DNA of 64,000 nt. Source: Ceratodon purpureus. Its lineage: Eukaryota > Streptophyta > Bryopsida > Pseudoditrichales > Ditrichaceae. This document shows, one piece after another, positions 3 through 63,286 of this stretch. Position numbers and translations under genes: made by a program. The stretch's first letter is position 1; every line of letters starts with the position of its first letter. Under the pieces are notes generated by a model that saw only the letters and a list, made by a program, of their open reading frames with translations, ran no database searches and had not been told where the DNA came from. Location of the stretch: the NCBI GenBank assembly GCA_014871385.1, contig CM026427.1, forward strand, positions 2,786,068-2,850,067. The letters run 5' to 3'.

Positions 3-1144
3 GCCAACGGCGGCTACTTCACCGCTTGGATTGACTATTACAAGACGTCGGAGATTCTTCAAGTGTTTTTGGCCAGTGGCTCCTTGGATGACATCTCAAA
101 ACCGCTAAAACCTTTGATTGAAGCTAATATTTCCAAGTTCATGCCGTTGGCAAATCTTGTAGACGAGTTCATGTATGTTGGATTCAGTTCGGGTACCGGA
201 GTACATTGGGAGGTTCACGAGATCAAATCTTGGACATTCACAAGCTCCATGACGCAGCAGGAAACCGTTGTTTTATCAGGTTCTCCTCCTCCCTCCGATT
301 GTTCCTTTAAGTTCTCCTCTCCTCCCCCGGTTGTTTCTCACTCGAGTCCTCAACCAGTTTTGTTTCCCTTCCAGGAGATCAATCATCAGGGAGCCCAGTG
401 AAACAGATAATTATTGGAGTCAGTGTTGCAGGTGGCATATTATTGCTTGCCAGTTGGAAGGTTTTAGGAGGCCCTCTCAAAACTCCCACTTATTCACAGA
501 CCTCTTTTGAGCTTCAACCTTTGACTCAAGGATTAGAGACTTTCCGTATCTTCATATCCCATACAGGTGGACCGAATGGCTCTGAAAAGAACTTCCCAAT
601 CAACCTCTCTAAAGCACTGAAAGACTATGCCGAGGAAAAAAAATGTAATTATGAAGTTTTTATTGATCGGAAAATGGAAAAGGGCACAAAATTTCCAGAA
701 GAAATCTTACGTCAAATAGCAATGACTCACCTGGGGATAGTGGTTGTTACTAAAGAATTTTTCAAAAACAAATGGCCAATGATAGAATTGGCGAAGTTTG
801 TGGAATTGTACAAACCTCCAGAAGTGTTGATTTTGCCTTTGTTTTACAAGCTGAAGCCAGCAGAAGTTAGGAGTCATCTGGAGAAAAAATTCTGGGAAAG
901 ATTTTGGACAGAGATGTCCTCTCCAAATCATCCTATTGATTTGGAAAAGTATAGAAATGCAGTTGAGACCCTCTGCAATATTAATGGTGTTGAATATAAT
1001 TTTTGGAACGACAGTTATGATGCAGAGTACATAGAACAGATTTTGAAAGAAGTGGATAAGATATACAATGATGGGAAGAAGAGCAAGTCTAGTCAAGAAA
1101 ACCAGAGTGAGTTAAGAGTCTGGTGGGGAAAGTGTTGGAGATAA
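3..1144 (+). CDS. L-type lectin / transmembrane / TIR receptor-like protein (5' end outside window)
   Basis: Two exons are visible, 3-279 and 375-1144, joined in phase 1 across a 95-nt GT-AG intron with a pyrimidine-rich acceptor. Exon 1 reads as the C-terminal part of a legume-lectin domain: WIDYYKTSEILQVFLAS, then EFMYVGFSSGTGVHWEVHEI and KSWTF. Exon 2 opens with a short linker, one hydrophobic segment (IIIGVSVAGGILLLASWKVL) and then a TIR domain. TIR landmarks are RIFISHTGGP, YEVFIDRKMEKG and KWPMIELAKF. The Glu after the Trp (codon 130 counted from position 398) lies where TIR NADases carry the catalytic Glu. Known L-type lectin receptors carry a kinase here, so a lectin ectodomain with cytosolic TIR is unusual. 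I infer a surface carbohydrate sensor signalling through TIR, possibly by NAD cleavage. A GTGAGT at 1107 could be a further donor, so the C-terminus at 1144 is uncertain. Confidence 0.8.
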
Positions 1145-4377: not shown

Positions 4378-4592
4378 ACGTGAAACTGTTTTTTAGATGT
4401 CGAACTGTTTTTTAAGATGTTGAAGGTTACATGAGTCTACGTCAAACCACAATTAGGGAACATGTGGCTATGACGTGATAGTCATTTCCCCCACCCTACT
4501 CAATTTTTACTGAGATTCTGTTTCCTTTCTTTGTTGTAATCGCGGTGCAGTCTCTAGAGTTGCTCAAAATGCAAAATTTCGTTTCAGTTTTG

Positions 4593-4920
4593 AGATGCTC
4601 AAAATGCAAAGATTTTATTTTATGTATTTGATGTAATCGTAGTGCGATTTCTAGATGCTCAAAATGCAAAGATTTTATTTTATGTATTTGATGTAATCGT
4701 AGTGCGATTTCTAGATGCTCAAAATGCAAAGATTTGATTTTATGTATTTGATGTAATCGTAGTGCGATTTCTAGATGCTCAAAATGCAAAGATTTTATTT
4801 TATGTATCTGATGTAATCGTAGTGCGATTTCTAGATGCTCAAAATGCAAAGATTTTATTTTATGTATTTGATGTAATCGTAGTGCGATTTCTAGATGCTC
4901 AAAATGCAGAGATTTTGTTT
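4593..4920. repeat. 60-bp tandem repeat (minisatellite), about 5.4 units
   Basis: A unit beginning GATGCTCAAAATGCAAAG and containing TGATGTAATCGTAGTGCGAT repeats with an exact 60-bp period, starting near 4593, 4654, 4714, 4774, 4834 and 4894. Units differ by only one or two bases, except the decayed outer ones. Because 60 is divisible by three, both strands give artificial repeated open frames; I do not regard these as genes. Confidence 0.9.
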
Positions 4921-5143
4921 TTCTTTAGATTTTGTGTCCACTTCAGATTTTGTTTCCTCTCTTTGTTGTAACTCGGGTGCGGCTCAAAATGCCAAGGCAT
5001 AAAAATCACATAGAACTTCCAAAATTGTCTTCAGTTTCATTTATATGACAAAATTCTGCTATTGAGATGAGCCCACATCTAATTTCATTTTAAGTTTTTG
5101 GGGTTCTATTGAACCGTTTGTACCACCAAAAAGATTGCCAAAA

Positions 5144-5225
5144 CGTCAACTGCAGGGTTCGAACCTGCGCGGGGGAACCCCAACAGATTTCAAGTCTGTC
5201 GCCTTAACCACTCGGCCAAATTGAC
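5144..5225 (-). tRNA. tRNA-Ser (anticodon UGA)
   Basis: On the minus strand the 82-nt gene starts GTCAATTTGGCCGAGTGG. Its acceptor stem GTCAATT pairs with AGTTGAC (one G-U), with G as discriminator. The anticodon stem ACAGA/TCTGT closes the loop CTTGAAA, giving anticodon TGA. The long variable arm (GGGGTTCCCCC) is typical of class II tRNA-Ser. A-box and B-box (GGTTCGAACCC) internal promoters are intact. A TTTTT terminator follows about ten bases downstream, seen as AAAAA at about 5130 on the plus strand. No intron is present. Confidence 0.96.
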
Positions 5226-5709
5226 ATGTGCTGAATCATCGCGAAGGACATGCTACGAATCGGAAACTCCCTCACTAGCTTCACTTCCGGCACACTTCAC
5301 CCTCATCTCCGTTGCTTTTCGTTAGTCGATAAGTGACTTTCCTCAAAGGTCCCGCAACCTCGGCGTCTCCACCGAACGCCGCCGAGTGCAGATACATCGT
5401 TCATTCCAGCAATCCATACTACGTGGATCTCTAGGTTCAGATTAATGGCCTTCGACCATTACGAATGTTGTGAGAGTACTTTGGATGATCAACTATAGGA
5501 AGAGTAAACCATCCACGTTCTCTCAATTCACTTCGATCTGTGCCTCTATGACAGGATTCTTCGAAGAAGGATTGCTTTGAGAATCAGAGTTGAGGCACAT
5601 CTTACATAACGTTCAGTATGACATGTGATTCTAGAGAGAGTAGTTAATGATTATGAGCACAGCTTGAGTTTCAGGGTTTCAGAAAGATTTAGGAAGAATT
5701 TTTGAGTGT
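5226..5709. other. Spacer between tRNA-Ser and snoRNA cluster
   Basis: No protein gene is evident. On the minus strand the 8-bp pair TGTGCCTC ... GAGGCACA closes a hairpin of about 60 nt near 5532-5598, followed directly by ACA. This could be an H/ACA-type hairpin in the same cluster, but I could not fit a second hairpin and H box, so it stays a weak candidate. Confidence 0.3.
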
Positions 5710-6626: not shown

Positions 6627-7140
6627 CGCAGTGCTTATACACACATCAAGTCGATGCGGCACCTTGACTATCCTAAATGAAAAGACTACAGAATATAGAG
6701 AACTACACTCCCTCTGGCACATGGTAGAGCAGCTTAATCCATACACTCAGAACTGACCAGAGTGCATTGTCCATCACTGCTGGCATGGGTGAACAAGGAC
6801 CAGATAAACCTACAACGCACAACCCTATCAACGTCATGCAAACCATAAAAGCCTCATCGATCTTAGTGGTATTGTGTTTAATCAGCTGGCCGAAACCATC
6901 AAGAGTAGCAAATACATTTTTAATCATAGGCTATGCAAATCCAGTGTCGCAAAAATTCAACCTATACATCCAGTTCTGAGGAGCAATACATATGATGGAA
7001 GATACAGATTGACAGGAGCTTGCTATCGACGGACAACCACAGCACGAAGATCAAGAGAAAAAGAAACATGTTTCGAATGCGTGGACATCACTGAGAAGGC
7101 CGCTCAAAGTTCAGGATGGTTTGAGAGGAGGCGTCGGCTC
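6627..7140. other. 5' part of the snoRNA precursor or unannotated spacer
   Basis: No gene is recognised. A 74-codon minus-strand frame at 6703-6927 has no family match I can name. The stretch lies between the snoRNA cluster and its probable promoter, so it is most simply leader sequence of the polycistronic precursor. Confidence 0.35.
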
Positions 7141-20195: not shown

Positions 20196-23055
20196 ATGTC
20201 AGGGGATACGTGGCATTTGTTTCTGGTTATTTCTGCGCTTCTGAGTTTGTATCAAGCTGCAGTTACAGCCACTCCACAGGAAGGTGATTAAAGATCAATT
20301 GAGTTTAACTTGCTTCTAGGTTGCCATATGTGTCCTCACGTATTCGTCCCGAGGTCTTGTGGATCTCAGATGTTGTTTATGTGATTTTACGTTCTGATTT
20401 TGAGGAGTCCTTTGCTTGCTGCTTTTCACTGATATCATTAAGATTTGTGCTTTTGGATGTCATACTTAGCAAATTAAATCTCTGTTGATTCTGAACAGTA
20501 TATTTAATTTCCCTGCAATGGACAAATAAACAATGAGTTGTAGACTGCGTCTGTGTGCGGACTTATTTTGTATTGCTTGCATGATGTGGATTATTGTAAA
20601 AAACATAGGGCTCCTGAGGTGGCGAGCCGTCAGCCTCTCAGGATAATTGATCTAGAGGCAATTGAGTACTGACTATTGTGGAATTGCTTTGCACCAGCTG
20701 CTATGTTGGAACAACTGAAGGAAGTCTGGTGCAGACCCGGCAACAAAGTGAGCCGCTGGAATGAGAGCGTGGATGCATGTAGTGGGCCTTGGCCTGGGAT
20801 CACTTGTGCACTCAAAGATGATGTTACAGTTCCAAAACTATGTCTTATCTCCAACATTTCCTGCACAGTCACCCAATTGTAAGATTTTTTTTTCTTGCGA
20901 ATCGGTCGAAAGGCATTCAAATTTGATCATGTCTTTAACTCTAGGAAAGCATGTATGATGGTTGTACTCAATCTGTAGTAGTATGTAACCATGCATTGAG
21001 ATGAGTGCTGAGTCTATTTTTGCGATGTTTGACTACAGGGATTTGTCGCACAGCAACCTTACTGGGGAGATTCCTTTCATCCTTGGAGGCTTGTCTAACT
21101 TGCTGTCTCTGTAAGCTTGCTCTCTTATACGTATACCTCGTCTTATCTCATAAGATAGAAGTGTCGCATTTCTATTTGAGAGGGGGTTCGTTCTCATTGC
21201 TGATTCCTTGACATCCAATCCTCTCGTGTAGTATTATGTGAACTACTTCCTTTCTAGAAACTAAAATTTTGATTATTTCGCTGCAGATTTTAGACGTTTG
21301 ATATCCTCATTCTGTCTAGAATACCTGGACTTCAGGGGCTTACGCATATATGGGGAGGGGTTAAGCAGTAATTGGTTGTTTCTCTAAGAACCACTTTTCA
21401 CGTGGAACTTGCTGTGTCCTCGTTTTTCGAAAAGGATTTTTTCTAATGGCTGAATTTATGTGGTTATCATAGGGATTTACACAGTAATCAACTTCTAGGC
21501 GAGGTTGCTACCCAGCTTTTTGATGGCTTCCCACACCTCCTCCACGTTGATTTCTCGCTCAATTACTTCAATGACACCCTTCCAAAGATAGATCGTGCTG
21601 AATTACAAAATTCAAACTGGAAGTATAACTGTTTCTCTGAGTACGGGGCATGCCAACTACTACCAGAGATGCGTCCCCTTTCGGAGTGCCTAAACGTTTC
21701 TACAATGCTGCTCCCTGCCTGCCCATCATGGGTTCGACAAAACCCCATCGCTTTGTACATTTTGGTGGGCGTGATTCCTTTCAGTGTCATCCTCTGCACC
21801 TTTCTCATTGTAATGCTCTGCTGCTGGCGGAGGCAGCCAAAGAATCAAATCACCAGAAGCAGGACTTGTTCGTCAAAGATCCCGTCAATTGAATGCAAGC
21901 TATTCACATATCAAGAGCTGGAGACGGCCACAAACAAGTTTCATGATAATCGGTTACTTGGTTGTGGCGGCTCTGGAAGTGTTTACCAAGGCAGGTTCGC
22001 AAATGGCTCATGTTTTGCTATTAAGCAACTGGTGAAGGCTACAGATTACGTGGACAATGACTTTTGGAAGGAGGTCTTAACTATTGGCTCTATTCAGCAC
22101 CCTAACGTGGTGCCACTGCGTGGGTATTGTAAAGAATCCAGAGGTCCAGAACGTCTTTTAGTTTATGAGTACATGCCCAATGGCTCTGTTCTAGATGCCT
22201 TGCTCAGTGATGATGTCCATTTGTTGCCTTGGAGTCGGAGGTACAGTATTGCTCTGGCAACAGCTTGCGGGTTGGAGTATCTCCATGAACACTGCTGCCC
22301 ACGTATCGTCCACAAAGACGTCAAGCCCAGCAACATCCTCCTTGACAGGAATTTCACTGCCCGGGTTGGTGACTTTGGTCTTGCAAAAATTGGCCTTGCA
22401 GAGCAGACTCATGCAAGCTCTCAATTCTTTGTGGACCCGGACTATGCAATGACTGGGAAACTCACTGATAAAAGCGATATTTTCAGCTTTGGAATGCTTC
22501 TGCTGGTCCTCATTCAAGGCCGACAGTTTCTTGAAACTCAAGGTGAGGTTTCTTATCTCTCGTGAAACTGTATCGACGTCAATTATGAAGTGTAGTAATT
22601 GGGAAAGGTTCCTGATATGTGCAATCCTGCCAATCTGATAAATTTATCTGAAACAAGTATTTGAAACGTGCGCAGGTAAAGCGCAGCTTTTCTCGACCAT
22701 TCAAGTGCTTGCAAAAGCTGATGATCCCTCGGAGTTTGTGGATTCGCGGCTAAGGGGCGTCTTCGACAAGAGGCAAGTTACACTTTGCGCACAGATTGCA
22801 CTTCTCTGTACGAGAATCCTTCCAGATCTCCGTCCAAACATGGGTGAAATACGACGGATTCTGGAGGGAACTGCTAGAATACCCTTGACAACGAGTATGA
22901 TCAACAGTCCAACTTCATCCTCCCGCGGCAGCTTCGTCTCTGAATGCCAAACCCCTTCCGTTGGCAGCTGCTACGGACACCGTGCTGGAAGCTTCATTTC
23001 GGACTGCTACAATATGTCCACCAGCAGTTGTCACGGACGTGAGGATAGCGAGTAA
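20196..23055 (+). CDS. LRR receptor-like protein kinase
   Basis: Five exons (20196-20283, 20698-20878, 21039-21110, 21473-22542, 22676-23055) give 596 residues. The start was chosen for its signal peptide, MSGDTWHLFLVISALLSLYQ. An LRRNT-type region has SVDACSGPWPGITC. The third exon is exactly 72 nt, one 24-residue LRR (LDLSHSNLTGEIPFILGGL), flanked by partial repeats. A transmembrane helix spans about 205-232. The kinase domain begins near FTYQELETAT: Gly loop GCGGSGSV, K298 (AIK), catalytic loop HKDVKPSN (H394/D396), GDFGLAK (D414) and DPDYAMTGKLTDKSDIFSFG. All residues needed for catalysis are present, but the loop has HKD instead of HRD. A Ser-rich tail follows. The ectodomain is short (about three LRRs), typical of small plant RLKs. 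Ligand unknown. Confidence 0.88.
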
Positions 23056-40361: not shown

Positions 40362-40522
40362 GGTTATGGGCCCTTTACACGTAAGTTTTGTAAAGCTGCG
40401 TCACTATTTGCTTCAGTACTGTTAGCATCTTTACTGCTTCGAATCTTGTTCGAACCTTAGTTACGTCATCCCAGCCTTGGAAATAGTGCTTAAATCAGGT
40501 CTGTACAGTCCATCGCTACAGC

Positions 40523-43500
40523 ATGGACTCCTCTCGTGACCTGGGGAACATTGATCGGTTCAATGGTCAAGATTTTCATTTATGGAAATTTCAAATGCAA
40601 GCGGTATTCCTTGGCAAGGAACTTATGGGTCATGTCGATGGCTCAGTACCGAAGCCAGATAATACCATTCCCGCAGATCTTTCCGAGTGGATCAAGAAAG
40701 ATAGTCAAGCATTCAGTCTTTTGTGTCAAGCCATTGACAAGAAGTATTTGAAGAACGTGAGCAGCTGTACGACTTCCAATGGAATTTGGACGAAGCTTAA
40801 GCTCCTGCATGAGCGAAATGCTTCTGAAAACATACATGCTCTGCAACAGTCGTTCTATAAGTGCCAGCTAGGTTCCGATGGCAACATAGCTGCATATCTT
40901 GGTGACATCGATGTCATCATCACCCAGTTAACCAGTCGCGGAGATCAAACGTTCAATGACAATGCTGTCATAGCAAAGATTCTTTGCAATCTTCCTGCCA
41001 GTTACGATCATTTTTTGTCTAACTGGAGTATCATGCCAGCCGCTGATAAGACGCTTGACAATCTGACTCTCCATCTTCTCACAATAGAAGAACGCCTCAA
41101 GGGTCGTGTAGACGCTGAAGCAGCAACTGCCGCTGCCTTCGTAGCATCCTCTAAAGGCAAAAGTGGGAGTAATTCCACTTCTGAGCACACAGTGGCAGAG
41201 CGAGCAGCGAGGCGTAAGGAGATAAGTGATCGCAAGTTGACTACGGAGTGCTGGGCTTGCGGGAAGATTGGTCACTGGGGCCGCGAGTGCCCGGCTAGTG
41301 CTGAGGAGAAGAAAGCGCATCAAGAAGCCAAGAAAAATCTCAAAGAGGCAGGACAGACCAAGGCAGCAGCATCCACCTCTTCAACTGACACATACAAGGC
41401 GTACATGGCAAGCATCAGCAGCATTCCCTGTGAGTCTACATACTGGTTTGTCGATAGCGGATGCACCGAGCACATGTGTCAAGATCGCACATCTTTCTTT
41501 ACTTTCACAGATATCTTGCATGAACGTCGACATGTTCAAGGAATTGGAGGAGCGATGCTGCAAGTGCATGGTATAGGCGATATCATCATCAAGATTCAAG
41601 GCGCCCAACAGACCACACACGGCATCTTGAAAGGTGTGATCTACGTTCCTGATCTTGGTCGCAACCTTTTCTCCACCTATGTAGCAGCTCAAAGGAAGAT
41701 GTACACCTTGCACACCGACACTAGGTGCCAGCTGCTCCAAGACGGGAAGCTTGTAATGCAAGGTGCAGTGCATTGCCGCCTGTACCGCATGCTATTTGAA
41801 GTTGTGAAACCCACGGAGAGCAGCACTGCCTTAATTGCCAATTCTTTCGGCACCGAAACCAAGGCAGCAAGCAAGCAAAGTCTTGATACGTGGCACAGGC
41901 GCTTGGCCCATGTTAGTCACTCCACCATTCGCACAATGGTGTCTCGCTGCATGGTAGATGGCATGCTCTTGGAAAACGGTCGTCATACCTTTTGTGCAGG
42001 ATGTGCTTATGGAAAGCAGCATCGGAACCCCTTTCCAACAAATGAACCGAGGACCAAAGCTCAACTACCGGGCGATCTGATTCACACCGATCTGTGTGGT
42101 CCTCTTCCCATAGCCTCAGTGGGAGGTTCATTGTACTTTGCTCTGTTTAAGGACGATAGCACAGGATATAGAGTAATCCATTGCATCAAAACCAAGCCTG
42201 ACTCTCTTCGATGCTTCAAACTTTTCTGTGCTCAGCTTCACCGTGAAACGGGTAGCATTGTGAAAGTTGTAAGGAGCGATAGAGGATCAGAGTACGTGAG
42301 TCGTGAGTTTCGCGCCTATCTTGACGAGAAGGAGATTGCCCAAGATCTGACCACCGTGTACACGCCAGAACAGAACGGTGCTGCTGAGCGAGACAACCGG
42401 ACAATCCTCGAGGCGGCGCGGAGCATGCTCTTCGCTGCCAATATACATGAGCGGTTTTGGGGAGAAGCGTCAAATACTGCGGTGTATGTCCTCAACAGGA
42501 CTGCTACAAGGACGCTTGATGGCATCACCCCATATGAAGCTTGGCACAAGGTAAAACCCTCAGTTGCACACATCCGGATATTTGGCTGTGATGCGTATGT
42601 GCATGTGCCGAAAGAGCTACGCCACAAGCTCTCCCGGAAGAGCAAGAAAGGCGTCCTGGTTGGCTACTCAACAACCAGCAAGGCATACCGGATTTGGCAC
42701 CAAGACACCAGGACGATTGTCGAAAGCAGAGATGTTCTCTTTGACGAAGATGGATCTGCGGATCCCACTGCCGATGGAACAACACATGAGCGCATATGGC
42801 TGGATGACACATGTAACCTTGGCCAGATAGCTCCCAGTTCCCCGGCTCATATTCGACAGCCAGTGGGAGCAGTATTCCCACTACCCGCACTAGCTGGACC
42901 AGCCCCTGTCGCTCACCAGCCGCAGCCTGAGGAGCCCAGCAGCCCTCTCCGTCTCAGCCTACCTGATAGTCACAGCAATGACCCAGATGATATAGAGCCC
43001 GGTCATCAGAACAGTGACGGAGATGATGTCAGCCAAGGGGCGCCCATTGTACACTTGGGCGACACGGTGCATGAGCCTATATTTCAGCCTGCCGAAGACC
43101 CACTTGCCAATTGGGAATCGGTTACTGCAGTTGACGTGCAACCCGAAGTGGTTGTTGTTCAGGAAGACCAATCGCCACCACCAGCGACCCGTTCACGGAA
43201 CCCACCTACCCGGTTTGGCGATTGGATTTACCCAGTGGATCGCAACACGTATGCATGCATTGCCACTGCGGCACCTGATGTATTACCGATTGAGCCAGCC
43301 ACTTATTACGAGGCCATGGCCAGCCCTGAGAGGTCACAATGGCAAATTGCCATGCAGGAGGAGTTCGACTCTCTCATGCTCAATCGCACATGGGATTTAG
43401 AATCACTCCCACCTAACAGGAAGACTGTTAAATGCAAATGGGTGTACAAATTGAAGCTGGGAGTTGATGGAGGTGTTCAACGCTTCAAAGCCCGTCTATG

Positions 43501-44845
43501 CGCCAAAGGATTCACACAGAGGCATGGCATTGACTACACAGAGACCTACAGTCCCGTTGTTAAGTTTGACTCCATTCGGAGCATACTTTCTATTGCTGCC
43601 GCCAATGACCTTGACATCATTCAGTTCGATGTCTGTAGTGCATTTCTCAATGGAGAAATAGATGAAGTCATCTTCATGGATCAGCCCCTGGGTTTCGAGG
43701 ATAACAACGCTGGACCTAGAGTATGTCGCCTCCGCAAAGCCCTATATGGACTCAAGCAGTCATCCCGCGTCTGGAATCGCAAATTTGACTCCTTCCTCAA
43801 GACTTTCACTCTGCAGTCCACGACAGCTGATTGTTGTATATACGTGAGTCACTCCGACCCCAAGCTCATACTTGCAATCTGGGTGGACGATGGTATTGCA
43901 TGCAGCCCTCGATCTGAAGCCGCACAGATTGAGCATATCCTCAACTTTATGAACGGCGCTTTCAAGATCACCCAGGGCCTCGCCGAAATGTACGTAGGTT
44001 TACACATCACCAGAGACCGAAGCAAGAGGACCCTCACGGTGGATCAGAGCACATATATTGAGCGGGTGCTCAAACGGTTTGCACACGAGTCATGCCACAC
44101 CGTTGCAGTACCGGTCGACCCCAGCAGTGCCGCCGACCTGAGCATTCAGATGAGCAGCAACGCGACTCAGTTTCCATACAAAGAGGGCGTAGGTTGCCTC
44201 CAGTGGGCAGCACTTGGCACTCGACCGGACATCTCGTATGCCGTGAGCAACGTTGCTCGTTTTAGCAACAACCCCGGCCAGCCACATATCCAAGCGTTTA
44301 AACGCATTCTCAAGTATTTACGTGGCACAGTCAATCTGTGCATCACATATGGAGGGCAGCATATTGACAATCGCCTCACTGCCTATTGTGACGCTGATTA
44401 TGCAGGTGACGTTGATGATCGAAAGTCCAGGTCAGGCTTCATTCTCCTCCTGAACGGCGGTCCTGTCTCGTGGGGGAGCAGGAAGCAGACTTGCACCGCA
44501 TGCAGCACAACGGAATCCGAATACATCGCAGGGCACCTAGCCAGCCAGGAGACGACGTGGATGCGCACACTGCTCGCAGACCTCGGAGCTCGCCAGACCA
44601 TCCCGACCACACTCCACAGCGACAACCAGTCGGCTATCAAGCTCGTTAAGAACCCAGTTTACCATAAGCGCACGAAGCACATTGACCTGAAGTACCATGT
44701 CATCCGAGAGTGCGACCAGAAGGGCATCATCTCTATCACCTATGTTTGCACAGCAGATCAAATTGCAGATATACTCACCAAGCCGCTTCCACGGGACAAA
44801 TTTGAACGCATGCGTCAGATGATTGGTCTCACTGCACGGGAGTAA
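40523..44845 (+). CDS. Copia gag-pol polyprotein
   Basis: One continuous 1,440-residue frame. The N-terminal gag (UBN2-type; MDSSRDLGNIDRFNGQDF) is followed by a CCHC zinc knuckle, CWACGKIGHWGRECP, near residue 243. The protease motif WFVDSGCTEHM is near 308. The GAG-pre-integrase HRRLAHVSH and the integrase core (HTDLCGPLP, VRSDRGSEY, QNGAAERDNRTI) follow. The reverse transcriptase has KARLCAKGFTQRHGIDYTET and the catalytic WVDDGIA. RNase H has YCDADYAGDVDDRKSRSG and STTESEYIA, and the frame ends with KTKHIDLKYH-type integrity features of Copia RNase H. The length is usual for plant Copia. It is part of the retroelement, not a host gene. Confidence 0.95.
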   Translation: MDSSRDLGNIDRFNGQDFHLWKFQMQAVFLGKELMGHVDGSVPKPDNTIPADLSEWIKKDSQAFSLLCQAIDKKYLKNVSSCTTSNGIWTKLKLLHERNASENIHALQQSFYKCQLGSDGNIAAYLGDIDVIITQLTSRGDQTFNDNAVIAKILCNLPASYDHFLSNWSIMPAADKTLDNLTLHLLTIEERLKGRVDAEAATAAAFVASSKGKSGSNSTSEHTVAERAARRKEISDRKLTTECWACGKIGHWGRECPASAEEKKAHQEAKKNLKEAGQTKAAASTSSTDTYKAYMASISSIPCESTYWFVDSGCTEHMCQDRTSFFTFTDILHERRHVQGIGGAMLQVHGIGDIIIKIQGAQQTTHGILKGVIYVPDLGRNLFSTYVAAQRKMYTLHTDTRCQLLQDGKLVMQGAVHCRLYRMLFEVVKPTESSTALIANSFGTETKAASKQSLDTWHRRLAHVSHSTIRTMVSRCMVDGMLLENGRHTFCAGCAYGKQHRNPFPTNEPRTKAQLPGDLIHTDLCGPLPIASVGGSLYFALFKDDSTGYRVIHCIKTKPDSLRCFKLFCAQLHRETGSIVKVVRSDRGSEYVSREFRAYLDEKEIAQDLTTVYTPEQNGAAERDNRTILEAARSMLFAANIHERFWGEASNTAVYVLNRTATRTLDGITPYEAWHKVKPSVAHIRIFGCDAYVHVPKELRHKLSRKSKKGVLVGYSTTSKAYRIWHQDTRTIVESRDVLFDEDGSADPTADGTTHERIWLDDTCNLGQIAPSSPAHIRQPVGAVFPLPALAGPAPVAHQPQPEEPSSPLRLSLPDSHSNDPDDIEPGHQNSDGDDVSQGAPIVHLGDTVHEPIFQPAEDPLANWESVTAVDVQPEVVVVQEDQSPPPATRSRNPPTRFGDWIYPVDRNTYACIATAAPDVLPIEPATYYEAMASPERSQWQIAMQEEFDSLMLNRTWDLESLPPNRKTVKCKWVYKLKLGVDGGVQRFKARLCAKGFTQRHGIDYTETYSPVVKFDSIRSILSIAAANDLDIIQFDVCSAFLNGEIDEVIFMDQPLGFEDNNAGPRVCRLRKALYGLKQSSRVWNRKFDSFLKTFTLQSTTADCCIYVSHSDPKLILAIWVDDGIACSPRSEAAQIEHILNFMNGAFKITQGLAEMYVGLHITRDRSKRTLTVDQSTYIERVLKRFAHESCHTVAVPVDPSSAADLSIQMSSNATQFPYKEGVGCLQWAALGTRPDISYAVSNVARFSNNPGQPHIQAFKRILKYLRGTVNLCITYGGQHIDNRLTAYCDADYAGDVDDRKSRSGFILLLNGGPVSWGSRKQTCTACSTTESEYIAGHLASQETTWMRTLLADLGARQTIPTTLHSDNQSAIKLVKNPVYHKRTKHIDLKYHVIRECDQKGIISITYVCTADQIADILTKPLPRDKFERMRQMIGLTARE

Positions 44846-51252: not shown

Positions 51253-51364
51253 CCTTGTCCCTGCCAAAGGTTTGTAGATTGTAGAGCATTCTGCCAGTAC
51301 CTGCAACAGGAGCGAAGCAACCTGAAGTACATGCAGTTTCATTCAGACTTAGTGTTCTCGGTGA

Positions 51365-51770
51365 CTAAGGTTGACGCACCTATGACCGACCAGTTAAGAG
51401 ATTTGCCACTGAGATTGAAGGTGTATAAGTTGAGGGAGATTTTCCCTTGAAGGGAAAATAGGTTTAAGGAGGAATGTAACTTTAAATGTCATGTTTACTT
51501 CTATATTTAATTCCCTATGAATTTTAAAAGACATTTTCACCTAAAACCGACCACCATGACACTAGAACGTGAGCACTATGCTACTACCAAAATATCCCTA
51601 TATGATTCCCTTCGATTCCCTTTCTACCAATCATGCTTGATACTTTCTTCGAGGTCTCCCAAGATTTTGAATTTGAAAACTGGCCGGAAATGGAGGCAGG
51701 TAATAGAGAAGTCTACTGACTAGTCATGGGTACCTCATCGGCTATGGGTGCGGTCTCAATAGCGCGAGAC
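51365..51770. mobile_element. MITE in left arm (CACCYATARCCGA family)
   Basis: The left end CTAAGGTTGACGCACCTATGA is mirrored by CATCGGCTATGGGTGCGGTC near 51735-51756. The same TIR core is found in the spacer MITE and at 3963-4377. The right end has lost the CCTTA terminus. An exact mirror copy lies in the right arm. Confidence 0.55.
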
Positions 51771-53140
51771 ATCATTCAGATAGTTTTAACAAAGATGAAT
51801 AACGCGTCGAGTTCGAACAAAAACTAGTTTGAAGGAGAATGCCAGCATTCGCAGACTTGGCTACTTGGTATTCGAATGCTCCACCTATTTAGTATGTACT
51901 TAAAATGTGAACGCATTATCAAATTACAGTGTCTGTTACTCCTATGACCTACTATGTCAGCAATGCATTGACATGATTCCGTATCTTAAAAGCTCCAATT
52001 TTAAGAGAACGAAACGTGCAGTGAGTGCTTCGTTGTAGTAGATATCCTGATATTATGGTTATGATTCGGGTTGGGGAATTGGAAGGTAATAACACTGGCT
52101 GTGGAGCGATAGCTTTCATTAAGGGGTTCACAGTAGAGAAATGTCTGAAGAGATATAATCCCTGTTGTGCCAATGATCAGGTAAGGGAACGGACTCACAA
52201 TCAATGTGTAATCAACCCAGCATCAAAGCAAATGCAACCCGTAATAACTACACGTTGCTTCTGTCAGGAAAAAATTAGAGTATTTTGCAGTAATCATACA
52301 CCCAAGGTGTCATACGCCGATGAGTGTTCATCATCCAGAAGCTTCCAACAACTCACACGAACTAAACCCCATTCCAACACATGGCCTCAGAAATCCTGTG
52401 TCATGAAAACATCATCTCTTCCCCTCGGGAAGTTCAGATGGAGCTCATGAATCTCTCATCATCGGTCCCAAACACACAATCCATCCCCGATCAACGCTCA
52501 GTGGAAGAAGAAGTCGTTTTGATTATTCGCCCACAGTCCTCCGTTGAGCACTTCGCGATCTGCCTCACGGCCTTATCATCATCGCGCTGACCGGACACCA
52601 TCCAACCAAACCCACACAAAACTTGTAGCCCCCGCTTCGCTCAGACCAAGGTGATCGGCTCCCCAGAGCCCGCAAGGCCTGCCTGAAGCAGTGACACGCC
52701 CACAGTGCTTTCGCTCTGCCAGCCCATCCGTTTGTGAAGAACAACTAACGAGGAAGGCCAACGACGTCCCAACCTCTACTCTAATATCTTCACATCAACC
52801 AGAACCCCGTACACATACACAGACTGTGTGGAACGCGGTAAAGCGATATGCTCATTGCCTGAGCGCACGCCCTTAATGCTCCATCCTTCCTCTTGCTACA
52901 GCCGTCAAGGCATAGGTACCACACCCACACACGGGCGCACACCTTGAGTACATTTGTAGCAAACCATGGCACCCTAATCACATCGACACATATATGTTCC
53001 CTCAGATCAGCGGGTTAACTATCATATGGGATGCGAAACATATGCTTCTATCCCCGTATCAAGTCTGTTGAGCTTGACGAAATTTTCTTGTCATCACAGA
53101 GATTTCTTGTGCCGGTACCTACTTTCAAAACTCGCGTCCG

Positions 53141-53638
53141 CAGCTCAGTCTCTGACCAGTTTCTCATTCACAGATCTCAGAAGCAGAACTGGCATTAGAC
53201 TGGTGTTTGGATTCATCACAGCTCGACGTCACAACCGAAGAAAACAATCTCCAGCAAGTGATTGTTACTGACAGACACGGAACGTCTGCCTAACTGCCCA
53301 CTCACCGACCACTCTAGCATAATCCACCATTCAATCACTGCGCAGAGGGCAGCAGCATTGTACACACGGGAATGCTTCATAAACCCTTCATAGGCCACAT
53401 CCACAGCTCAGTCTCTGACCAGTTTCTCATTCACAGATCTCAGAAGCAGAACTGGCTTTAGACTGGTGTTTGGATTCATCACAGCACGACGTCACAACCG
53501 AAGAAAACAATTTCCAGCAAATGATTGTTAACAACAGACATGGAACGTCTGCCTAACTGCCCACTCGCCAAACACTCTAGCATAATCCACCATTCAATGA
53601 CTGCGCAGAGGGCAGCAGCATTGTACACACGGGAATGC
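53141..53638. repeat. Tandem duplication, 263-bp period, left arm
   Basis: The segments 53141-53375 and 53404-53638 both run from CAGCTCAGTCTCTGACCAG to TACACACGGGAATGC and differ at only a few positions. The offset is 263 bp throughout. The mirror copies are at 60901-61135 and 61164-61398. Confidence 0.9.
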
Positions 53639-55152
53639 ACGACGACACATCAACCCTAAACCCTAGAAATTATCAAAAACGAAAGAAGGCTTCGTGAAGG
53701 ATCAGTTTTTCTGGCTTGGCCCTTCCGGGCTAGTTAGCACAGTTGGAATCAGCGTCGATCATCCGGGGAAAGTATCCTCATCTCCACTCACAAACACACA
53801 ACTCTAGAAACAAACAAATAAACAAACAAACGAGACCATGCAAACCCTAGAAGAGAAAGAGATGAGTGTAAACTCTTGAATAGTAGGGCAAGCGCACGGG
53901 GCAGCACGAGCACCGTGGAGGGAGTTCTACGGTTGTCTGGCCGCTGCCGCACCACGAATCACGACGGATAGTGGTGCGACGGTCGCTGTGGGCAGAGCGC
54001 CGTGCGGAAGTGGTCTCAGAGCGGAGACCAGACCGGCCTTGGGACGACGCAGTGCCAAAGATGTCCACCAAACAGCAGAGCAAATAAATCGAGGTTGGGA
54101 CGCTTCGGCAACAGCACCTACAACTAGTAATTAGTCCACCTTGAAGCCGGGAAAGAAAGTGTGTGTCTGGATTAGAGGAAGAGCTCCTTCAGGCGACGCT
54201 TGCTTATGCTTATGGTTTTTAGTGTCACTGCTGCTCTTTTCTTTTACCCTTTTTAGAGTAATCTTATGATGTTTCAATATCAACAATATAAGGTTTAAAA
54301 TTTGATTGTCAAAAATGTGATGTTGAATTTTTGTCCAAATATTTTCATGTTTTTATATGCTATCGCGAGTGTTTTCAAAAACTTCATTATTCTCTGTATA
54401 ATTTATCATCAGCAAACCGTATACGCATGTCCAACACTGCACATGTTCTGAAGCCAATAACGCATGCAGTTAAACAAGGGATTCATATAAAAAGGCAATT
54501 GCAACATGTCCCGTTAGTGGAACGACCTTTACGTGCATGCTTTACTTGCTAGGTTAAAAATACTTAGTTTTAATTACAACATTAAGTGAAGGTTCAAAAT
54601 GCCCAACAAAGTAGAATACAAGCTATTATGTATGGCTAGAAGCTGGGATGTTCGAGTAGACATCTTAAATGCTCAAGGAAACATCAACGCCTTTGACCGA
54701 ACGTCTTCTTAGACGCTTCTAAAATTCTCGTGTTGTTCATACATCATGTACTGCCTCACTTGAGTCCAATTCGGGCCATCATTATATGGTACAAAAAGTC
54801 GTTCTCCGTCTCCATAAGACATCACCAAATACGGGGTTTTCTTACAGAAATGACTAGTTTCCATTCTCTAAATTGTAAGGGTGATATTTATGGTGCATAG
54901 AGGCAAAAGGTAAGAGAAAAAATGTTTAAGGATTTAGACTCTAGAATCTTATCAAGTAAACTTTATGCACATGTAAACCAATCAAAATTTGATTCTAATT
55001 CATGCGTATGGACTCAAGTAGCGACAATCCGTAAAAAATTATCCAGATTGAATAAGTTGTACTTAAATGGTCTCATGTCTTGAATATAGACTTGGCTTTT
55101 GTTCTTCAAAATCTGTAGACACCTTCTACTATAATGAAGTGATCATCTATTA

Positions 55153-55279
55153 GGTAATGGTTTTCTTAGAACTGTTATTGGTGCAGAACCGGTTCTGTCG
55201 AGGTGGCGAGTCTGCGAGGGCGAGCCAGCTGGATAGAACCTCTTCTGCACCAATTACTGATTCCAAGAAAACCATTACC
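55153..55279. repeat. Foldback/short MITE in left arm
   Basis: GGTAATGGTTTTCTTAGAAC followed by TGTTATTGGTGCAGAACC is mirrored at the other end (about 41 of 47 positions pair). This leaves a short loop and gives a 127-bp hairpin-forming element. Its mirror is at 59260-59386. Confidence 0.75.
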
Positions 55280-55788
55280 GGACGTAACTGGTGGCCACTT
55301 TGTTGAGCCGCGACCCTAATCCTTGACAGTCGGCCGCCTGTCATCTTCTTCAACGGTGTCGTCTCCCTCGAGCATTAGAGAAATGAGCGCCACTGGAGAT
55401 TAGGGTGTTGCTTTGAGTTTCAAATTTTTGGGCGCTGCAGTTTGAGTATCAAATTTTGCAGCTGTAATCTGTTAGCATTCTCGTAGACTTGCATGATTTG
55501 CTTTGTTTTATGGCTTGTAGTTTTAATTTGTGCATGGTGCTTGCTATTTTCTGCATGAGCTTGAGGGTTTCCGGGTGCGCTTAGGATTTTTGCATGGGCT
55601 TGAGGTTTACAGCATATGCTTGCATTTTGAAGTTTTATATGAGGGTTTTATGTTGTTGTCGTATCAGTCTTGACGTTGTGTCGACTGCGATGTTGTGTCA
55701 AGGGTGTAGGTCAAAGCGTCGGTGATGCTTGAGATTAGAAAAAACTCTACTCGTGAGGACTTCATTGTTGCCTTCTTTTAATTTTGGG

Positions 55789-57305
55789 ATGGATTTAACG
55801 TCTCCAGAGTCAGTTTCCATTTCTCCAAATGTTTCAAAGCGAGCAAAATCGGAGAAACGAGTTTCAATAGCCAAACCTATAGGTGTTGTTAGTGATGTAC
55901 GTTGTAGGTCCATTTCAGAGATTTACACATCGTCGCAGCTGACGTTGATTGAAGTTCCTTGTCAAGAGACAGAGACAAAGGGTTTGAGTGATCATGTGGA
56001 AAATTGTTTCGGTGTTGTGCACTATGCAAGTTCTGGTGTTGGAGGTTCTACAAGTGAATATGAGAGAAATTATTGTGCCGATGTTTGTTCTTCAAGTTAT
56101 GTTGTTGAAGAACCTTTGGATGCTGACGTTCACTTACCTACAAGTGATGGTAGAGATAATGTTTTTTTTTTAGGAATACCTGTTTCTGAAATATTTGTGG
56201 ACCACAAGATGGCATGCAGGAGGGCTTGATGAGATCGGACTTTCTATCATTGATGAACCTTTTGATTATCGTAACAATGAGAGAATGCAGTTGAGTGAGA
56301 GATCTGATGTGCTTGTGGAGGTGATCAACAAGTCTACTCTTGTATCCATTAAGGTAGAAACACCTATAACCGACAACTTAAAGCAGTTTAGCATATCAAA
56401 GCTTGGGTTATCGACAAGGAGATATTTTTGGTTCATAGGAAAATAAGGTTCATGAAGAATGAGCATTTTTTCATGAATTATCTCCCAATATTGAAATTTG
56501 TACAATTTTTCAAAGTGAAAAGTACTTCCGACCCAATAACCGATATGTACAAATGAGGTACATCTGTTCTTTCATAATCTAGGAATTAGAATATATCGGC
56601 TATTGGTCACTTGTCGGCTATGGGTGTCTCAACCTTAGTACTGATCATTCTATGGTAGTTGAGTCTCCTCGTGATTTTGTTAATGAAGCAGGTTTTGACA
56701 TATCTGATGAAGCTTCTTTTGACAAAGAAATGCGCTGTAACCAAAAGAACGATACAACGAAGAGCAACTCCCAGGTGAAAAACTGGTTTAATGCATGGAG
56801 TGAGTCTTCAAAATTAGATACCTCAGTGCCGTTGGAGGAAATTCCTCTTCGTGAATTGTCAGAGTTGTTTTGTAGGTTTTTTTTGTGCTTGAAGAACAAA
56901 AAAGTGAAGGACTATCCTAGTCAAAGTGTTATGCAAATCTACAAAGGTTTCAACCGGATATTTTGTGGCATTCAAAGAGAGAGGATCGATTCTAGAGGGA
57001 TTAACAAGAAACCTTTTTTCATGCACACTCATCCTATCTTTGGTCGCACAAGCAAGTCAGTTCTTCTGGCGATGGAGAAGTCAATCAAGGCTGGTGCAAA
57101 CAAAGCTAGGCGTAAGGTTGATTTCTTCACTGATGAAGATGAGCGTAAAATTTTAGCACATCCTTTACATCAACCTAATTGTGCTTACGAGGTGCAGAGG
57201 AGATTTGTTCTCTTCGCTACATTTGTTTTCTTCGTAAGAGGAAACACAGAGTTCTGGAAGTTGCGTGCAGTCAATTTTTGTCTCGGCACTGATAAGCGTG
57301 GCTAG
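55789..57305 (+). pseudogene. Crypton-like tyrosine-recombinase gene, broken
   Basis: An ATG at 55789 opens MDLTSPESVSISPNVSKRAK and reads into the inner edge of the left arm. After a frame change near the T-run at 56162-56171, the reading continues as DEIGLSIIDEPFDYRNNERM up to a MITE insertion at 56349-56638, then resumes at 56640. The part at 56652-57305 reads VPLEEIPLRELSELFCRFF, KNKKVKDYPSQSVMQIYKGF and KPFFMHTHPIFGRTSKSVLL. It ends with RRKVDFFTDEDERKIL and FVFFVRGNTEFWKLRAVNF. This order matches the SAM-like core-binding domain and the start of the catalytic domain in Crypton/DUF3504 recombinases (as in ZMYM2, QRICH1 and KIAA1958 proteins); the Arg of VRGN would be the first catalytic residue. 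The frame stops before the H-x-x-R and Tyr region, so it cannot be active. Confidence 0.65.
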
Positions 57306-58368: not shown

Positions 58369-58750
58369 AAAAAAAAACATTATCTCTACCATCACTTGTA
58401 GGTAAGTGAACGTCAGCATCCAAAGGTTCTTCAACAACATAACTTGAAGAACAAACATCGGCACAATAATTTCTCTCATATTCACTTGTAGAACCTCCAA
58501 CACCAGAACTTGCATAGTGCACAACACCGAAACAATTTTCCACATGATCACTCAAACCCTTTGTCTCTGTCTCTTGACAAGGAACTTCAATCAACGTCAG
58601 CTGCGACGATGTGTAAATCTCTGAAATGGACCTACAACGTACATCACTAACAACACCTATAGGTTTGGCTATTGAAACTCGTTTCTCCGATTTTGCTCGC
58701 TTTGAAACATTTGGAGAAATGGAAACTGACTCTGGAGACGTTAAATCCAT
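58369..58750 (-). pseudogene. 5' fragment of Crypton-like gene, right-arm copy
   Basis: Mirror copy of 55789-56170, starting MDLTSPESVS. It stops being homologous at the same T-run where the arm ends and then runs into unrelated spacer sequence, with a stop shortly after. It lacks the recombinase domain. Confidence 0.7.
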
Positions 58751-61700
58751 CCCAAAATTAAAAGAAGGCAACAATGAAGTCCTCACGAGTAGAGTTTTTT
58801 CTAATCTCAAGCATCACCGACGCTTTGACCTACACCCTTGACACAACATCGCAGTCGACACAACGTCAAGACTGATACGACAACAACATAAAACCCTCAT
58901 ATAAAACTTCAAAATGCAAGCATATGCTGTAAACCTCAAGCCCATGCAAAAATCCTAAGCGCACCCGGAAACCCTCAAGCTCATGCAGAAAATAGCAAGC
59001 ACCATGCACAAATTAAAACTACAAGCCATAAAACAAAGCAAATCATGCAAGTCTACGAGAATGCTAACAGATTACAGCTGCAAAATTTGATACTCAAACT
59101 GCAGCGCCCAAAAATTTGAAACTCAAAGCAACACCCTAATCTCCAGTGGCGCTCATTTCTCTAATGCTCGAGGGAGACGACACCGTTGAAGAAGATGACA
59201 GGCGGCCGACTGTCAAGGATTAGGGTCGCGGCTCAACAAAGTGGCCACCAGTTACGTCCGGTAATGGTTTTCTTGGAATCAGTAATTGGTGCAGAAGAGG
59301 TTCTATCCAGCTGGCTCGCCCTCGCAGACTCGCCACCTCGACAGAACCGGTTCTGCACCAATAACAGTTCTAAGAAAACCATTACCTAATAGATGATCAC
59401 TTCATTATAGTAGAAGGTGTCTACAGATTTTGAAGAACAAAAGCCAAGTCTATATTCAAGACATGAGACCATTTAAGTACAACTTATTCAATCTGGATAA
59501 TTTTTTACGGATTGTCGCTACTTGAGTCCATACGCATGAATTAGAATCAAATTTTGATTGGTTTACATGTGCATAAAGTTTACTTGATAAGATTCTAGAG
59601 TCTAAATCCTTAAACATTTTTTCTCTTACCTTTTGCCTCTATGCACCATAAATATCACCCTTACAATTTAGAGAATGGAAACTAGTCATTTCTGTAAGAA
59701 AACCCCGTATTTGGTGATGTCTTATGGAGACGGAGAACGACTTTTTGTACCATATAATGATGGCCCGAATTGGACTCAAGTGAGGCAGTACATGATGTAT
59801 GAACAACACGAGAATTTTAGAAGCGTCTAAGAAGACGTTCGGTCAAAGGCGTTGATGTTTCCTTGAGCATTTAAGATGTCTACTCGAACATCCCAGCTTC
59901 TAGCCATACATAATAGCTTGTATTCTACTTTGTTGGGCATTTTGAACCTTCACTTAATGTTGTAATTAAAACTAAGTATTTTTAACCTAGCAAGTAAAGC
60001 ATGCACGTAAAGGTCGTTCCACTAACGGGACATGTTGCAATTGCCTTTTTATATGAATCCCTTGTTTAACTGCATGCGTTATTGGCTTCAGAACATGTGC
60101 AGTGTTGGACATGCGTATACGGTTTGCTGATGATAAATTATACAGAGAATAATGAAGTTTTTGAAAACACTCGCGATAGCATATAAAAACATGAAAATAT
60201 TTGGACAAAAATTCAACATCACATTTTTGACAATCAAATTTTAAACCTTATATTGTTGATATTGAAACATCATAAGATTACTCTAAAAAGGGTAAAAGAA
60301 AAGAGCAGCAGTGACACTAAAAACCATAAGCATAAGCAAGCGTCGCCTGAAGGAGCTCTTCCTCTAATCCAGACACACACTTTCTTTCCCGGCTTCAAGG
60401 TGGACTAATTACTAGTTGTAGGTGCTGTTGCCGAAGCGTCCCAACCTCGATTTATTTGCTCTGCTGTTTGGTGGACATCTTTGGCACTGCGTCGTCCCAA
60501 GGCCGGTCTGGTCTCCGCTCTGAGACCACTTCCGCACGGCGCTCTGCCCACAGCGACCGTCGCACCACTATCCGTCGTGATTCGTGGTGCGGCAGCGGCC
60601 AGACAACCGTAGAACTCCCTCCACGGTGCTCGTGCTGCCCCGTGCGCTTGCCCTACTATTCAAGAGTTTACACTCATCTCTTTCTCTTCTAGGGTTTGCA
60701 TGGTCTCGTTTGTTTGTTTATTTGTTTGTTTCTAGAGTTGTGTGTTTGTGAGTGGAGATGAGGATACTTTCCCCGGATGATCGACGCTGATTCCAACTGT
60801 GCTAACTAGCCCGGAAGGGCCAAGCCAGAAAAACTGATCCTTCACGAAGCCTTCTTTCGTTTTTGATAATTTCTAGGGTTTAGGGTTGATGTGTCGTCGT
60901 GCATTCCCGTGTGTACAATGCTGCTGCCCTCTGCGCAGTCATTGAATGGTGGATTATGCTAGAGTGTTTGGCGAGTGGGCAGTTAGGCAGACGTTCCATG
61001 TCTGTTGTTAACAATCATTTGCTGGAAATTGTTTTCTTCGGTTGTGACGTCGTGCTGTGATGAATCCAAACACCAGTCTAAAGCCAGTTCTGCTTCTGAG
61101 ATCTGTGAATGAGAAACTGGTCAGAGACTGAGCTGTGGATGTGGCCTATGAAGGGTTTATGAAGCATTCCCGTGTGTACAATGCTGCTGCCCTCTGCGCA
61201 GTGATTGAATGGTGGATTATGCTAGAGTGGTCGGTGAGTGGGCAGTTAGGCAGACGTTCCGTGTCTGTCAGTAACAATCACTTGCTGGAGATTGTTTTCT
61301 TCGGTTGTGACGTCGAGCTGTGATGAATCCAAACACCAGTCTAATGCCAGTTCTGCTTCTGAGATCTGTGAATGAGAAACTGGTCAGAGACTGAGCTGCG
61401 GACGCGAGTTTTGAAAGTAGGTACCGGCACAAGAAATCTCTGTGATGACAAGAAAATTTCGTCAAGCTCAACAGACTTGATACGGGGATAGAAGCATATG
61501 TTTCGCATCCCATATGATAGTTAACCCGCTGATCTGAGGGAACATATATGTGTCGATGTGATTAGGGTGCCATGGTTTGCTACAAATGTACTCAAGGTGT
61601 GCGCCCGTGTGTGGGTGTGGTACCTATGCCTTGACGGCTGTAGCAAGAGGAAGGATGGAGCATTAAGGGCGTGCGCTCAGGCAATGAGCATATCGCTTTA

Positions 61701-63286
61701 CCGCGTTCCACACAGTCTGTGTATGTGTACGGGGTTCTGGTTGATGTGAAGATATTAGAGTAGAGGTTGGGACGTCGTTGGCCTTCCTCGTTAGTTGTTC
61801 TTCACAAACGGATGGGCTGGCAGAGCGAAAGCACTGTGGGCGTGTCACTGCTTCAGGCAGGCCTTGCGGGCTCTGGGGAGCCGATCACCTTGGTCTGAGC
61901 GAAGCGGGGGCTACAAGTTTTGTGTGGGTTTGGTTGGATGGTGTCCGGTCAGCGCGATGATGATAAGGCCGTGAGGCAGATCGCGAAGTGCTCAACGGAG
62001 GACTGTGGGCGAATAATCAAAACGACTTCTTCTTCCACTGAGCGTTGATCGGGGATGGATTGTGTGTTTGGGACCGATGATGAGAGATTCATGAGCTCCA
62101 TCTGAACTTCCCGAGGGGAAGAGATGATGTTTTCATGACACAGGATTTCTGAGGCCATGTGTTGGAATGGGGTTTAGTTCGTGTGAGTTGTTGGAAGCTT
62201 CTGGATGATGAACACTCATCGGCGTATGACACCTTGGGTGTATGATTACTGCAAAATACTCTAATTTTTTCCTGACAGAAGCAACGTGTAGTTATTACGG
62301 GTTGCATTTGCTTTGATGCTGGGTTGATTACACATTGATTGTGAGTCCGTTCCCTTACCTGATCATTGGCACAACAGGGATTATATCTCTTCAGACATTT
62401 CTCTACTGTGAACCCCTTAATGAAAGCTATCGCTCCACAGCCAGTGTTATTACCTTCCAATTCCCCAACCCGAATCATAACCATAATATCAGGATATCTA
62501 CTACAACGAAGCACTCACTGCACGTTTCGTTCTCTTAAAATTGGAGCTTTTAAGATACGGAATCATGTCAATGCATTGCTGACATAGTAGGTCATAGGAG
62601 TAACAGACACTGTAATTTGATAATGCGTTCACATTTTAAGTACATACTAAATAGGTGGAGCATTCGAATACCAAGTAGCCAAGTCTGCGAATGCTGGCAT
62701 TCTCCTTCAAACTAGTTTTTGTTCGAACTCGACGCGTTATTCATCTTTGTTAAAACTATCTGAATGATGTCTCGCGCTATTGAGACCGCACCCATAGCCG
62801 ATGAGGTACCCATGACTAGTCAGTAGACTTCTCTATTACCTGCCTCCATTTCCGGCCAGTTTTCAAATTCAAAATCTTGGGAGACCTCGAAGAAAGTATC
62901 AAGCATGATTGGTAGAAAGGGAATCGAAGGGAATCATATAGGGATATTTTGGTAGTAGCATAGTGCTCACGTTCTAGTGTCATGGTGGTCGGTTTTAGGT
63001 GAAAATGTCTTTTAAAATTCATAGGGAATTAAATATAGAAGTAAACATGACATTTAAAGTTACATTCCTCCTTAAACCTATTTTCCCTTCAAGGGAAAAT
63101 CTCCCTCAACTTATACACCTTCAATCTCAGTGGCAAATCTCTTAACTGGTCGGTCATAGGTGCGTCAACCTTAGTCACCGAGAACACTAAGTCTGAATGA
63201 AACTGCATGTACTTCAGGTTGCTTCGCTCCTGTTGCAGGTACTGGCAGAATGCTCTACAATCTACAAACCTTTGGCAGGGACAAGG
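58369..63286. repeat. Right arm of the 12-kb inverted repeat (4,918 bp)
   Basis: Mirror image of 51253-56170 with the same length and no visible difference where compared. Its outer edge is 183 bp from the alpha-tubulin stop codon, so its distal part may lie in the tubulin 3' UTR or terminator region. It carries mirror copies of the MITE (about 62769-63174), tandem duplication, foldback (59260-59386) and the 5' part of the Crypton-like gene (58369-58750, minus strand). Confidence 0.95.

Follow-up and report, generated by a model that had tools for sequence, protein, structure and literature searches.

The plus strand of the analysed stretch of Ceratodon purpureus DNA (contig CM026427.1 of assembly GCA_014871385.1, positions 2,786,068 to 2,850,067, forward strand; 64,000 nt, in the following termed the window) probably carries a plant gene for a single-pass membrane receptor, which combines (i) a legume-type lectin ectodomain, (ii) a transmembrane helix, and (iii) a cytosolic plant-type TIR domain. 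The gene is cut by the window start and only its 3' part lies within the window (Table 1). The presence of both domains is certain and their arrangement as lectin, helix and TIR in a single gene is likely; the product is predicted to be translated from a single transcript, to reside at the cell surface and to function as outlined further below. Among the readings considered, this arrangement fits the sequence best, mainly because the TIR frame itself lacks an ATG ahead of the domain. A preceding sequence-only reading had proposed the same architecture, joined over a standard intron and representing a receptor class in its own right. Its domains were recovered here, whereas neither the standard character of the intron nor the status as a class was upheld.

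Table 1 Features of the lectin-TIR gene (positions within the window)
Feature	Position	Strand	Basis or remark
Exon 1 with the final third of the legume-lectin domain (5' end lies before the window)	3..279	+	PF00139 and PDB matches
N-glycosylation sequon NIS	126-134	+	Motif; one in exon 1
Either a putative intron of 95 nt (strong acceptor, weak donor) or a Pro/Ser-rich stalk, stop-free in the lectin frame, needing a frameshift	280..374	+	
Exon 2: hydrophobic helix, juxtamembrane stretch, TIR, short tail, stop codon	375..1144	+	
Predicted single transmembrane helix IIIGVSVAGGILLLASWKV	407..463	+	Kyte-Doolittle scan
Plant-type TIR domain, nearly full length	542..1111	+	PF01582 and PDB matches
Putative catalytic Glu (exon-2 residue 137)	785..787	+	Aligned with Roq1 chain residue 86
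Gly near C-terminal end of TIR (exon-2 residue 204)	986..988	+	Aligned with Gly of Roq1 'anisg'

Lectin domain and transmembrane segment

Translation of positions 3-278 yields 92 residues of the lectin, that of positions 377-1141 yields 255 residues containing the TIR domain. The former match the legume-lectin profile PF00139 far above its cut-off (E 3.7e-14, 53.3 bits versus 26.3; profile positions 163-242 of 250, window positions 9-263), confirming the suggested end of a legume-lectin domain in exon 1. In the PDB, sequences of legume lectins are matched from E 5.9e-08; NCBIfam yielded no match for this exon. The start codon, the signal peptide and the N-terminal part of the lectin, including the metal- and sugar-binding residues expected there, would lie upstream of the window, and assignment as a lectin rests on the last third of the domain. 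The domain is predicted to bind sugar. Joining of the exons over 279/375 results in a single open frame of 348 residues; PF00139 and PF01582 are matched in their separate exons as well as in the joined protein.

A hydrophobic segment between the two domains, proposed earlier as the transmembrane helix of exon 2, is indeed present, starting about 11 codons beyond the proposed exon junction. When the 348-residue protein is shuffled, its 19-residue Kyte-Doolittle mean of 2.0 is reached in 81 of 2,000 cases, and the hydropathy peak by itself is moderate evidence for a transmembrane segment. Lysines flank the C-terminal side of the helix (WKV, then GGPLK), which by the positive-inside rule fits a cytosolic location of the TIR domain.

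The TIR domain

Exon 2 matches nearly the entire TIR profile PF01582 (E 1.5e-15, 57.9 bits versus a cut-off of 21.3; profile positions 2-175 of 179), and its stop codon ends 33 nt beyond this match, at position 1144. The best PDB matches of the domain are plant TNL and TIR-only proteins, with Roq1, RPV1, an ADP-ribosyl cyclase/hydrolase (7xoz) and RPP1 at the top. Of the 21 PDB matches at E ≤ 0.01, plant NLR or TIR proteins account for 16 and bacterial proteins for 5, as classified by molecule name or known origin; none is an animal Toll-like receptor (TLR) by name. A TIR domain of bacterial or animal type was rejected, with plant sequences scoring highest in the PDB search. NCBIfam contributed three matches for exon 2 at 17.2-20.6 bits, compared to cut-offs of 130-600. 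Two single-sequence AlphaFold models reached mean pLDDT values of 42.6 and 42.4 and did not confirm the fold.

Upon alignment with Roq1, the position of the putative NADase glutamate of the sequence-only reading was counted by hand: E137 of exon 2 is placed opposite Roq1 chain residue 86, presumably the catalytic glutamate. Likewise, G204 is assumed here to correspond to the self-association glycine discussed in PMC9806590. According to that paper, the glutamate occurs in each of the four TIR groups shared among plants, and the glycine in every one of them except the TNPs.

Two points may be raised in favor of a real architecture with a TIR domain that acts as a non-enzymatic scaffold, or of a non-functional chimeric gene: the frequency of the glutamate need not track reported activity, according to PMC7075850, and the third-position GC content differs between the lectin exon (0.55) and the TIR exon (0.39), as a recent fusion might bring about. 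However, the aligned glutamate and glycine are retained and the frames are open, and a contrast in GC content between short exons is weak evidence. Either version is considered unlikely.

Dependence of the TIR frame on the upstream exon

A stop at position 308 precedes the open part of the TIR frame, in which the first ATG is found only at 674, i.e., at codon 100 of exon 2 and inside the TIR domain beginning at codon 56. Translation of the TIR domain from an ATG of its own was thus ruled out within the window's frame. Considering GT donors and the acceptor at 375 only, seven pairs of ATG and donor feed this acceptor with an open frame; they originate from three ATGs, and all seven are in the lectin frame. 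Given the missing early ATG and the uniform frame of these pairs, the TIR domain seems to depend on an exon further upstream, for which that of the lectin is at hand. Both domains are encoded on the same strand, and one gene for lectin and TIR is likely.

Without joining, the lectin frame reads through 40 codons and ends at a stop at 399 (399-401). A secreted or truncated lectin terminating there with a Pro-rich tail, next to a separate TIR gene having its 5' exon elsewhere or a non-ATG start, would account for this stop. The locus is cut by the window start, such that an exon upstream of the lectin is conceivable, and three near-cognate codons precede the TIR domain in its frame (GTG 398, TTG 443 and TTG 521), which leaves initiation at a non-ATG codon as an unlikely possibility. 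Yet the 95 nt between the exons offer scant room for a promoter plus a 5' exon, the TIR frame is devoid of an ATG before the domain, and the read-through lectin would be without a transmembrane helix even though one begins shortly past the proposed junction. Two genes at this locus are considered improbable.

The segment between lectin and TIR

The intron at 280-374 is the weak point of the gene model. Its properties were compared to those of nine introns from two neighbouring genes, encoding alanyl-tRNA synthetase (8 introns) and a GMC oxidoreductase (1 intron), with anchors picked using prior knowledge of these proteins. Eleven junctions were tried, two of which (ala9, gmc1) had no solution and were left out; a tie at ala8 was settled by taking the second solution.

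The donor (CAG|GTTCTC) agrees with the consensus at 3 of 7 positions and at none from +3 to +6. Scores of the calibrating donors range from 3 to 6, with a score of 3 in one of the nine and a purine at +3 in eight. Base composition of the putative intron is likewise atypical: its GC content (0.516) exceeds that of all nine calibrating introns (0.323-0.404) and its A content (0.095) lies below their range (0.226-0.344); the pyrimidine content amounts to 0.779 (0.473-0.617 in the calibrating introns), and the T content (0.389) is within their range. The acceptor at 375, on the other hand, is strong, with a pyrimidine fraction of 0.82 at -20 to -4 (0.35-0.82 in the calibrating introns), equalled in quality by 40 of the 7,991 AGs on both strands of the window, and is preceded by the branch-point-like motifs CTCAC and CTCAAC (detected by eye). 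The in-frame join was dropped as evidence, since 228 GT/GC-AG pairs in the region connect the lectin and TIR frames openly in the same way. Thus, of the claim that the exons join in frame over a standard intron, the GT/AG borders, the frame and the strong acceptor stand, whereas the weak donor and the atypical GC and A contents speak against 'standard'.

The main structural rival dispenses with the intron. Positions 280-374 would then encode a Pro/Ser-rich stalk, and a frameshift, due to mutation or assembly error, would have occurred at about 311-398, where the lectin and TIR frames are both open. The ancestor would have been a lectin-stalk-helix-TIR protein, and the present copy would be a pseudogene or reflect a sequencing error. 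In the lectin frame, the segment contains no stop and is Pro/Ser-rich, and reading 3-401 through in this frame gives a match to Extensin_2 (E 0.0051, 17.3 bits) below the cut-off of 20.8; the weak donor and the deviating composition also agree with a coding stretch. A CT-rich run, however, is poor in stops through composition alone, the strong acceptor is located precisely where an intron would require it, together with the branch-point-like motifs, and no other damage is seen in the frames of lectin and TIR. The matter is not decided by codon log-odds: the segment scores 0.09 in the lectin frame and 0.16 and -0.09 in the others, while the best frame of the calibrating introns reaches at most -0.23 in eight of nine cases and 0.06 in the ninth; but the lectin frame is not the top-scoring one, and the score was trained on the same introns and hence is not independent. 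Taken together, a stalk with a frameshift is regarded as rather unlikely. The encoded order of lectin, helix and TIR is the same whether the segment is an intron or a frameshifted stalk; the difference is whether this copy works.

Provided that the receptor gene is spliced as proposed, the combination of a weak donor with a strong acceptor and the open 40-codon read-through to the stop at 399 could also represent a regulated choice, in that splicing would yield the membrane-bound lectin-TIR protein and retention a soluble lectin ending at 401. Such a switch is compatible with the preferred lectin-helix-TIR gene; as a weak donor is equally expected of a sequence that is no intron, it appears to be a long shot.

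Genomic neighbourhood

No further copy of the gene is apparent within the window (best other tblastn match at E 0.076). The next recognisable gene downstream is a frame for a HAD-family hydrolase at 2092-2895 on the minus strand (PF00702, E 3.5e-12). It is followed by a tandem array of ~60-nt units at about 4590-4910 around 'gctcaaaatgcaaagattttattttatgta' (identified by eye in the raw sequence), a tRNA-Ser (anticodon TGA; 5143-5226, minus strand) and a SNORD24 match (6850-6932, minus strand). Pieces of a leucine-rich-repeat receptor kinase are found at 20673-23055, some 20 kb away from the lectin-TIR gene, with an LRRNT_2 match just under cut-off and a kinase exon at 21447-22565. A PP2C gene is also present in the window. 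The receptor kinase, the PP2C, the SNORD24 match, and the Copia element and snoZ103 matches described below agree with a nuclear genome of a plant.

A Copia retrotransposon at 40487-44845 comprises an unbroken frame of 1,452 residues with gag, integrase and reverse transcriptase matches and is perhaps young, judging from this uninterrupted frame. The window also contains an inverted repeat (51253-56170 and 58369-63286), the 4,918-nt arms of which are 100% complementary and 2,198 nt apart. Both arms include a snoZ103 match as well as a 252-nt tandem pair, and the spacer between them contains an ORF of 240 aa (56583-57305) for which Pfam gave no match up to E 1. The repeat may have arisen very recently, or else it is a palindrome created by the assembly.

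Proposed function

In the proposed receptor, the lectin would bind a glycan or another ligand in the wall space. Binding or clustering would assemble the TIR domains beneath the membrane, and the assembled domains could then cleave NAD+ via the conserved glutamate, releasing nucleotide signals with a presumed immune or developmental output. Signalling by the NADase activity of the TIR domain, in a layout like that of TLRs, is considered the most likely mode of action.

In the best-studied plants, surface receptors signal by way of kinases, and TIR enzymes mostly occur in NLRs or as TIR-only proteins (PMC9806590, PMC7282519). If true, a lectin-helix-TIR receptor would couple outside sensing and TIR signalling in a single molecule, as in animal TLRs. 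A precedent for TIR activity in such plants is reported in PMC11218826: of 20 TIR domains taken from nonflowering species, 11 brought about moderate-to-strong cell death in N. benthamiana, an effect that was lost in E-to-A mutants of one fern and one Ginkgo TIR domain. Seed-free plants are described in the same study as lacking EDS1; PMC10834447 likewise reports EDS1, PAD4, SAG101, NRG1 and ADR1 to be confined to seed plants, and close but rare EDS1 homologues are reported for some ferns (PMC12512272). Should the host be seed-free, the gene would bear on TIR signalling where EDS1 is reported absent. One may speculate that Toll-like receptors of the cell surface evolved independently in a plant lineage, with a glycan-binding lectin outside and an NAD+-cleaving TIR domain inside, perhaps in a plant without EDS1 and including a splicing switch that could release a soluble lectin instead; this far-reaching scenario is tentative and, as a whole, doubtful.

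Comparison with known systems

A protein composed of a legume lectin, a transmembrane helix and a TIR domain was not found in searches of the main text of open-licence PMC papers. PMC6362431 covers lectin architectures of algae, bryophytes and other organisms; the term 'TIR' is absent from its main text, the architectures being given in Supplementary Table 3. In PMC10834447, receptors are sorted by kinase only, for which reason a TIR tail could pass unnoticed among the L-lectin receptor-like proteins of that study; similarly, proteins of the present type could be contained in the about 1,000 green plant TIRs left unclassified in PMC7075850. Pattern searches for relatives of exon 2 gave 7 matches in viral_contigs and 32 in genome_contigs, those for exon 1 gave 8 in viral_contigs, and none was confirmed; this absence says little, since the collections searched are not of plants. 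A tblastn search of plasmids with exon 2 was not informative; its 11 records, with a best E of 1e-3, were for the most part annotated as DUF1883 or as TIR proteins. With one partial gene and no relative confirmed in non-plant collections, the distinct receptor class of the sequence-only reading is unproven, and the gene is best described as a new combination of known parts.

L-type lectin receptor-like kinases and L-lectin receptor-like proteins likewise have a Lectin_legB ectodomain followed by a transmembrane helix, but possess a kinase (or, in receptor-like proteins, none) where the present gene has a TIR domain. Exon 2 runs to its stop without a match to a kinase domain and thus sets the gene apart from the receptor kinases. 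The joined model, with its L-lectin ectodomain and one transmembrane segment (by hydropathy only) but no kinase, may be compared to the definition of receptor-like proteins with one or two transmembrane segments in PMC10834447.

TIR-NLRs (TNLs) and TIR-only proteins of plants share the sequence type of the TIR domain and the aligned glutamate with the lectin-TIR protein; here, in contrast, the TIR domain is C-terminal, behind the lectin and the membrane helix. No Pfam match to NB-ARC or LRR was obtained in exon 2, distinguishing the gene from TIR-NLRs. By the definition in PMC9806590, TIR-only proteins are shorter than 400 aa and lack any further Pfam domain, whereas the joined protein, conditional on the join, contains the lectin match.

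Lectin-type and TIR domains are also united in single proteins of other plants. TIR-Nictaba proteins are known from Arabidopsis (PMC5485960), among which PP2-A5 belongs to another lectin family and carries the TIR domain N-terminally and the PP2 domain C-terminally (PMC12355970). A soybean GNA-TIR-NB-ARC-LRR sequence, again with a lectin of another family, comprises a signal peptide followed by GNA, S-locus, PAN, TIR, NB-ARC and LRR (PMC6272470).

Animal TLRs have the order of ectodomain, single helix and C-terminal cytoplasmic TIR domain in common with the lectin-TIR protein (PMC7075850). They differ in having an LRR ectodomain, whereas here a legume lectin adjoins the helix (sequence further upstream being outside the window), and in the type of the TIR domain, which is that of plants in the present case. 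Within the window, neither an LRR ectodomain nor a TLR-type TIR domain belongs to the gene. The analogy to TLRs drawn by the sequence-only reading thus applies to the layout and does not extend to sequence kinship, and the resemblance probably arose by convergence instead of descent.
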